Both the position numbers and the translations under genes were made by a program. Positions 29,476-29,820 of a stretch of DNA of 64,000 nt are shown in pieces. The stretch covers positions 2,418,001 through 2,482,000 of the forward strand of contig NC_012029.1 of the NCBI RefSeq assembly GCF_000022205.1, read 5' to 3'. Below the pieces are notes generated by a model. That model did not search any database. It saw only the letters and a list, made by a program, of their open reading frames with translations, and had not been told where the DNA came from. Source of the DNA: Halorubrum lacusprofundi ATCC 49239. Its GTDB lineage: Archaea > Halobacteriota > Halobacteria > Halobacteriales > Haloferacaceae. The stretch's first letter is position 1. Each line of letters begins with the position of its first letter.

Positions 29476-29820
29476 TGGCGTGCGCCGGTGAGCGGCCCGC
29501 AGGGCCGCGAACCGCGAGGGACCGAAAGTTCCTCTGGCAGACGGTGCTACGCGCCGGCGACGACCGCACGAGGGAGTCGGCCGGCGTTTATAAACGCCGG
29601 CCGACGAGGCTGGGGAGGCGCGAGGTGCGGTTGCGGGGCGGTGGGGATGCGGGTGCGGGGCGGTGGGGGTGGCGGTGCTGGTGCGGTCGGGTCGGGACTC
29701 AAAGGGGCAGGCGGGAGGCGGGCGCAGACGACGGAAGCACCGTAGGGAGCGAGTGAAACGAGCGACTGAGGAGCGCAACGAGTGTGCGCCCGCCTCCCGC
29801 CTGGGGCTTTGGAGGTGCTC
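29476..29820 (-). ncRNA. Putative structured RNA element, copy A (long form)
   Basis: Read on the minus strand: a TATA-like CTTATAAATG (29841-29850), then box 1 (ACCTCCAAAGCCCCAG, 29816-29801), a perfect 19-base stem (29803-29785 with 29726-29708) enclosing a 58-base loop, box 2 (CCCCTTTGAGTCCCG, 29707-29693), box 3 (29618-29605), a perfect 30-base palindrome (29605-29576), box 4 (GACTCCCTCG, 29578-29569), about 75 extra bases, a 7-base terminal hairpin (29108-type layout at 29508-29492) and the end GGCGCACGCCA (29486-29476). The region 29236-29960 holds no supported protein gene. Confidence 0.7.

Follow-up and report, generated by a model that had tools for sequence, protein, structure and literature searches.

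A high-copy intergenic repeat of Halorubrum whose middle hairpin keeps its fold while its letters differ from copy to copy

Introduction

REP and BIME elements with RAYT transposases are widespread, intergenic, high-copy hairpins with conserved flanking bases. In haloarchaea, palindrome-associated transposable elements (PATEs) were described in Haloquadratum, and one PATE was reported in the H. lacusprofundi virus HRTV-DL1 (PMC3119063, PMC10544981). It is an old question how hairpin stems keep perfect pairing while their letters change. Template switching, proposed to create and maintain RNA hairpins, has been put forward as an answer (PMC8794818), and arm homogenisation together with spacer inversion was reported in yeast (PMC8604942).

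The present analysis concerned a perfect 30-base palindrome, GTCGGCCGGCGTTTATAAACGCCGGCCGAC, whose exact position is 29576-29605 of the window, i.e., of the whole analysed stretch of 64,000 nucleotides from the Halorubrum lacusprofundi genome. This palindrome forms the middle hairpin (hairpin 2) of a repeat that is non-coding, intergenic and present in many copies, and that has conserved boxes; it is a major repeat of Halorubrum. Within the genus, each genome contains the same stem in dozens to almost two hundred parallel copies, so that the rates and directions of change could become measurable. Circular RNAs have been reported from H. lacusprofundi (PMC12558985), and a deletion system has been published for this species.

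Results

Architecture of the repeat and its copies in the window

The core of the repeat was found to span ~330 nt and to consist of box 1, hairpin 1, box 3, hairpin 2, box 4, box 5, hairpin 3 and box 6. When the copies were read side by side, the common box sequences were TGCGGTGGCG (box 1), CGAGGGAG (box 3), CGAGGCTGGGGAGGYG (box 4), ACTCAAAGGGGCAG (box 5) and CTGGGGCTTTGGAGG (box 6), with a G-rich stretch between boxes 4 and 5. Three copies, A, B and C, lie in the window (Table 1). The earlier note had described perfect palindromes of differing sequence at a fixed place between box 3 and box 4 of these copies. This was borne out, since hairpin 2 was a palindrome of 30 bases in copy A and of 28 bases in copy B, and a 42-base hairpin in copy C. 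The accompanying claim that the boxes are conserved and the arms are not also held beyond the window, as 269 pooled copies (253 with box 3) gave 201 distinct box 3-box 4 stretches.

Table 1. Positions in the window of the features of copies A, B and C
Feature	Copy	Position	Strand	Remarks
TATA-like motif GTTTATGA	A	about 29455-29462		decayed; just upstream of box 1
Box 1, GCGGTGGCG	A	29472..29480	+	left limit of conserved core
Hairpin 1 region (..GGT-GA-GCGGCC..GGCCGC-GA-ACC..)	A	29482..29568	+	enlarged here by extra palindromes
Box 3, CGAGGGAG	A	29569..29576	+	
Hairpin 2	A	29576..29605	+	perfect 30-base palindrome
Box 4, GAGGCTGGGGAGGCG	A	29606..29620	+	
Box 5, ACTCAAAGGGGCAG	A	29697..29710	+	left arm of hairpin 3 begins here
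Hairpin 3	A	29700..29811	+	30-nt arms, 87% complementary, GGG/GGG mismatch block
Box 6, CTGGGGCTTTGGAGG	A	29801..29815	+	right arm of hairpin 3
TTTATAA	A	29843..29849	no strand	right of core
Whole copy	B	62020..62340	-	box 6 at 62086-62097 and again at 62029-62040; box 5 at 62189-62199; box 4 at 62228-62243
Hairpin 2	B	62243..62270	-	perfect 28-base palindrome
Box 4	C	22591..22606	-	
Hairpin 2	C	about 22606-22647	-	42-base hairpin, long arms

Repeats of ~57 nt with GGCTGGGGCTTTGGAGG and TTATAA were observed after box 6, at 29801-29860 of the window and in many other copies, and their number was variable. A search of phages with the tandem 57-nt unit gave no meaningful match. Kinship to the 58-bp repeats of halovirus HF2 was therefore dropped; in addition, the text of the HF2 paper (PMC8707807) contains no TTATAA.

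A short tandem repeat, GGGGCGATCACGGGGCGATCAG, was recorded at 32461-32531 of the window. A short hairpin (TTGACATCCTCCCCGCGCTGAAGCGCGAGG..) at 29965-30002 stands as a solo end adjoining RNase P and occurs also near copy 620359 (L008); we take it to be of the kind present at the ends of haloarchaeal TnpB/IS605 elements. Copy 460486 contains a 35-nt end common to TnpB loci.

Copy number and distribution

A search for box 4 with at most one mismatch resulted in 69 matches in the H. lacusprofundi genome (G000), compared with 4 for the reversed-pattern control. This set of 69 includes copies A, B and C; because it was picked by box 4, the conservation of box 4 itself is biased in it. A 561-base query around the palindrome gave 73 matching pieces in the same genome. 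All 69 matches were located on the main chromosome (C2) and none on the two secondary replicons; under random placement, the probability of finding no copy on the remaining 26% of the genome would be ~1e-9 (copies treated as independent). The 83 exact box 4 matches of genome G035 were all on its contig C1 (3,218,340 of about 3.6 million bases), and the matches listed for G001 (the first 100 of 109) and for G024 (the first 50 of 52) were likewise on C1. The secondary replicons were covered fully in G000 and G035, and for the listed matches in G001 and G024.

Each of the 52 Halorubrum genomes searched matched a copy. Among 148 genomes of the family, the 30 that belong to Halorubrum carried from 15 to 196 box 4 matches each. 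Outside the genus, 116, 19 and 14 matches were recorded in G064, G070 and G057, respectively, and the other genomes were near the control. The matches listed in a scan of named genomes came mostly from Halorubrum, and also from Halorussus, Halobium and one Natrinema plasmid. Owing to the latter, together with three partial matches, the repeat is not strictly absent from plasmids. A contig labelled as a Verrucomicrobiaceae MAG (L289) matched the box 3-box 4 pattern as well, which may be contamination or chance.

No match to the repeat was obtained in 50,697 phage records, a set from which records very near the source genome may be left out. In Rfam 15, no match above the gathering score was found within the element, the best relaxed match having an E value of 0.64. 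A description of the repeat was not found in open-licence PubMed Central papers on haloarchaeal repeats and RNAs, and it does not appear in the passages on repeats and palindromes of the genome paper (PMC5018182).

Genomic surroundings

According to our own codon-usage gene calls, none of the 69 copies overlapped a predicted gene. By the same calls, the 67 copies with both neighbour genes were distributed among 32 convergent, 28 tandem and 7 divergent gaps. The gene pairs of G023 (four contigs) served as the baseline, with 147 convergent, 449 tandem and 145 divergent pairs of 741. Convergent gaps were thus enriched among the copies (32/67 versus 147/741, P 2.6e-7, copies treated as independent), and this enrichment, together with the scarcity of divergent gaps (7/67), was read as avoidance of promoters. 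Within the tandem gaps, no orientation preference toward the neighbour genes was observed (15 opposite, 13 same). A transcription terminator between convergent genes was rejected, because 28 of the 67 copies were in tandem gaps and showed no such preference. Replication-linked orientation was rejected as well, since strand runs were unclustered in G000 (P 0.40) and G024 (P 0.78). Of the three genomes tested, G001 alone showed weakly clustered runs (P 0.026, over its first 100 listed matches), a result that was not used.

Hairpin 2 keeps its fold while the letters vary

Box 3 was recognised by rule in 59 of the 69 copies of G000, and 57 distinct box 3-box 4 stretches were present among those 59. 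In the scan set, 129 copies among the matches listed gave 110 distinct stretches. The many-copy comparison of pairing that the earlier note had proposed was performed on the 201 distinct stretches of the pooled set, of which 141 folded lower than all 100 of their shuffles and 186 lower than at least 95. Chance was therefore excluded as an explanation of the folding. Copies with unpaired sequence between the two boxes were also sought. Less than half of the bases were paired in 7 of the 201 stretches, of which two looked by eye like chance matches in coding DNA, and the others were damaged or had many G-A mismatches. Since 131 of 201 shuffled stretches also reached half paired, the fraction of paired bases was not retained as a main measure.

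Covariation was evaluated in the 35-nt class, which comprised 44 distinct stretches and in which 97.9% of 572 pair cells were paired. The number of double-changed cells was 62, compared with 14.4 (sd 4.3) after shuffling, and none of 500 shuffles was as high. Changes on both sides were recorded for 8 pairs versus 4.7 in shuffles, and slid structures of the same class had 0-8 double-changed cells. The covariation score was equal to 0.338, compared with 0.141 for shuffled data and at most 0.103 when the partners were slid. Covariation supporting the fold, a criterion of structured non-coding RNA, was present.

The outer pairs G-C, T-A and C-G were nearly constant in the main class, and 9 arm pairs differed by single compensated base-pair changes, forming stem families. 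The stems ranged from TTATAA-centred palindromes to those with GA/GA or GGA/GGA mismatch blocks. Wobble pairs were scarce, with 13 of 572 cells being GU or UG in the 35-nt class. Of the two readings offered by the earlier note, another independently kept stem was supported by the strong covariation, and the fold was kept at matching sites despite differing letters. The second reading, that ready-made palindromes were repeatedly inserted between box 3 and box 4, appears highly improbable as the main story: one length class shares constant outer pairs and differs by compensated single pairs, and scans requiring at least 15-18 bases between the two boxes gave no copy in which box 3 abuts box 4. 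It survived as a second process, since some copies have extra multi-hairpin modules, in either orientation, beside hairpin 2 (466648, 854483 and 998789) or within other boxes.

As many as four perfect hairpins, chained by the linkers CTTGCAA, GTGACAGC and TGGCAG, were observed in L102, L107, L023, L105 and L025. The chain was inserted at varying points and in both orientations, like the SMR-A elements in PATEs. In one copy, at about position 1697903 of G000:C2 (L092), the unit of box 3 and hairpin 2 was repeated in tandem about four times.

Strand asymmetry and a candidate promoter

Hairpin 1 carried a GA/GA mismatch in 134 of 212 copies, and the complementary TC/TC in 1, the rule for TC/TC being slightly laxer. 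The mismatches of its stem comprised 26 G-T and 5 A-C. Of the three-base loops, 39 were GNA and 23 TNC; the 45 four-base loops included 2 GNRA and no TNCG, and GNA and GNNA loops dominated overall. GNA and GNNA loops are favoured by DNA hairpins more than by RNA, and they argue against a preference for RNA. In hairpin 2 of the scan set, among the matches listed, G-T was not clearly above A-C (17 to 14), with registers that were partly wrong.

Upstream of box 1, 41 of the 59 G000 copies and 42 of 104 others had a TATA-like motif. It was located 7-9 nt from box 1 in 35 of the 41 and 28 of the 42, respectively. Control windows gave 1/414 and 2/738 (0.2-0.3%). By the pattern used, 18 of the 59 and 62 of the 104 copies were without the motif. 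In halovirus HF2, the TATA motif was reported to begin at -26 from the start (PMC8707807), and if the same rule were applied here, transcription would start at the foot of hairpin 1. The kept G-A mismatches, the excess of G-T over A-C and the TATA motifs at a fixed distance suggest that one strand folds, because a double-stranded cruciform would not favour one strand.

Turnover at matching sites of other species

Among 18 sites of G023 with both flanks, the element was present in the same orientation at 6, inverted at 1 and with a degenerate core at 1, and was absent from 10. The window's own site, between the CPBP gene and RNase P, was a short gap without a copy in G023, G043, G020 and G002, and at least 7 others of the 29 relatives read carried a copy there in the same orientation. 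Matching sites with a copy were compared 31 times (G023 and scan loci), and the orientation was the same in 29 and inverted in 2 cases. The 29 comparisons, which cover about 22 sites, are not independent of one another; presence is biased in the partners other than G023, which come from a scan demanding the element, and one absent site (2447605) was entered twice in this comparison. An identical box 3-box 4 stretch was found in none of the 31 comparisons; where box 3 could not be located, as in some of them, the comparison used the last 30 bases. The core identity at matching sites was 0.66 (same-orientation rows) versus 0.63 (sd 0.10) between G000 copies taken at random. Inheritance seems to apply to place and orientation but not to the stem letters.

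The small difference between these two identities would fit gene conversion that shuffles stems among copies. We give this very little credence, because recent conversion should leave shared stems, and 57 of 59 stretches in the genome were distinct. The same count makes it unlikely that stems change mainly by being copied from sister copies.

Footprints of arm-to-arm copying

Both arms of hairpin 3 were readable in 147 of 269 copies, and the GGG/GGG block was kept in 136. In 3 of the 147 (181452-, L317 and L351), one arm was rewritten as the complement of the other: the right arm after the left in copy 181452, and the left arm after the right in L317 and L351. Copy 1696360 was, by reading, apparently a further partial case outside this count. 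Among 13 hairpin 2 arms with more than one spacer, 3 pairs had identical arms and inverted spacers (GACA/TGTC, AGCC/GGCT and ATATAA/TTATAT). Copy 824587 had the inner segment of hairpin 3 inverted. The three rewritten copies and the three spacer pairs point to template switching between the arms.

Such footprints would also be expected of a dead, functionless repeat, in which the palindromes are perfect merely through replication copying arm onto arm. The few wobble pairs of hairpin 2 (13/572 cells) and the loss of inverted ends in most copies (17 left and 9 right in 198) are in line with this explanation, which we nevertheless consider unlikely. Pure arm copying would erase the GA/GA (134/212) and GGG/GGG (136/147) blocks, yet they were kept, and neither the strand asymmetry nor the conserved boxes are predicted by it.

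Ends, origin and mobility

The coverage by sister copies dropped beyond about -150 and +250 of box 4. Of 198 copies, 17 had the inverted end motif CGGGAGTGRGTRTTGCA on the left and 9 on the right, and most copies showed none. A 305-base derivative at C2:1109331-1109635 had both ends present and the part from box 4 to hairpin 3 lost, apparently between GGCTGGGG repeats. The outermost flanks of some long copies matched a 462-nt MITE ending GGCTCTGTTGAAATCC, which are the ends of a 1,193-nt DDE_Tnp_1 element. The repeat may have originated as a MITE, most copies being no longer recognisable as one. A parental transposon assigned through these outer ends (the MITE or the DDE_Tnp_1 element) was set aside, since most copies are without them. 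A target-site duplication was not seen by eye at the empty sites, where the intergenic flanks were too diverged.

On contigs C1 and C3 of G000, the 1,193-nt element with the ends GGCTYTGTTGAAATCC and a DDE_Tnp_1 transposase was noted. MITEs of ~460-490 nt with the same ends were located mostly on secondary replicons.

The folded strand could be single-stranded DNA, in which case the repeat would be a non-autonomous transposable element with hairpins recognised by their shape by the transposase of another element, as in PATEs, REPs and IS200/IS605 ends. The presence and absence between species (10 of 18 G023 sites without the element), the RNase P site being empty in four genomes and occupied in others, the dominance of GNA/GNNA loops with GNRA rare, and the rare long copies with inverted ends all speak for this reading. 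We hold it to be doubtful, as the candidate transposases were poorly connected with the repeat. At the 9 Y1 transposase loci, the only connections were a neighbouring copy and a 35-nt IS605-type end in common, and boxes 4-6 occurred together at only 2 of 27 TnpB loci, both of which held a nearby copy. Furthermore, 4 of the 9 Y1 matches and 14 of the 27 TnpB matches are on the secondary replicons, which have none of the 69 copies. A search for a linked RAYT-like gene was negative: around the 9 Y1 genes, searched with 1.5 kb flanks, the boxes never occurred on both sides.

Discussion

Proposed mechanism

We proposed that the shape of the hairpins is kept by selection on one strand, that arm-to-arm copying helps to replace the letters, and that the folded strand is preferably RNA. 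A probability of roughly one half was assigned to this joint account. In the mutation step, template switching during replication would copy one arm onto the other, resulting in arm homogenisation and spacer inversion, and a new pair or block would arise in both arms at once. In the selection step, the box 1 to box 6 strand would have to fold, with more tolerance of G-T than of A-C, and selection would retain the tandem G-A mismatches and the G-G mismatch block, which would be lost by arm copying. The folded strand would preferably be an RNA, with its start at hairpin 1 and the TATA box of the element as its promoter. The comparisons show the repeat itself, its fold, covariation, strand asymmetry, arm-copy footprints and presence or absence between species; we infer that most change arises by template switching, that the element is transcribed and that the fold is under selection. 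For the nature of the folded strand, RNA is only slightly preferred to single-stranded DNA. The small number of arm-copy footprints (3/147 and 3 spacer pairs) stands against the account, as do the prevalence of GNA and GNNA over GNRA and TNCG loops, the copies without a TATA-like motif, the unclear G-T excess in hairpin 2 of the scan set and the absent orientation preference toward neighbour genes.

As a more tentative possibility, the repeat might represent a genus-wide structured-RNA family, each genome having from tens to almost 200 loci, all of them on the main chromosome in the genomes that could be checked completely. Every locus would then have a hairpin "label" of its own, whose letters are rewritten over time by copying between the arms without a change of the fold.

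Comparison with known systems

The repeat resembles PATEs, MITEs and REPs but belongs to none of them by the tests run. Like PATEs, it is haloarchaeal and transposase-free, with no target duplication seen by eye, and has several palindromes with small foreign modules inserted near them; its ~330-nt core is too short for a transposase and encodes none. However, its boxes were not shared with the IS605-type ends of the host (9 Y1 and 27 TnpB loci) except near a copy or fragment, its arms differ from copy to copy, and it had no match in the 50,697 phage records, among which those very near the source genome may be missing. PATEs are characterised by the absence of terminal inverted repeats; in the repeat, long copies have inverted ends and most copies show none.

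With the REP/BIME elements, the repeat shares a widespread, intergenic, high-copy occurrence of hairpins and conserved flanking bases, but it has three hairpins and long boxes. The MITEs or small mobile repeats (SMR) of haloarchaea (PMC3119063) are similarly short and non-coding, and some copies of the repeat have inverted ends as well; in the repeat, however, the ends are missing from most copies and the hairpin core persists. Compensatory changes, arm homogenisation and spacer inversion are common to the repeat and to the hairpins attributed to template switching (PMC8794818, PMC8604942). The latter were reported in RNA genes and yeast coding genes, whereas here the same features are found in a repeat with dozens of copies per genome.
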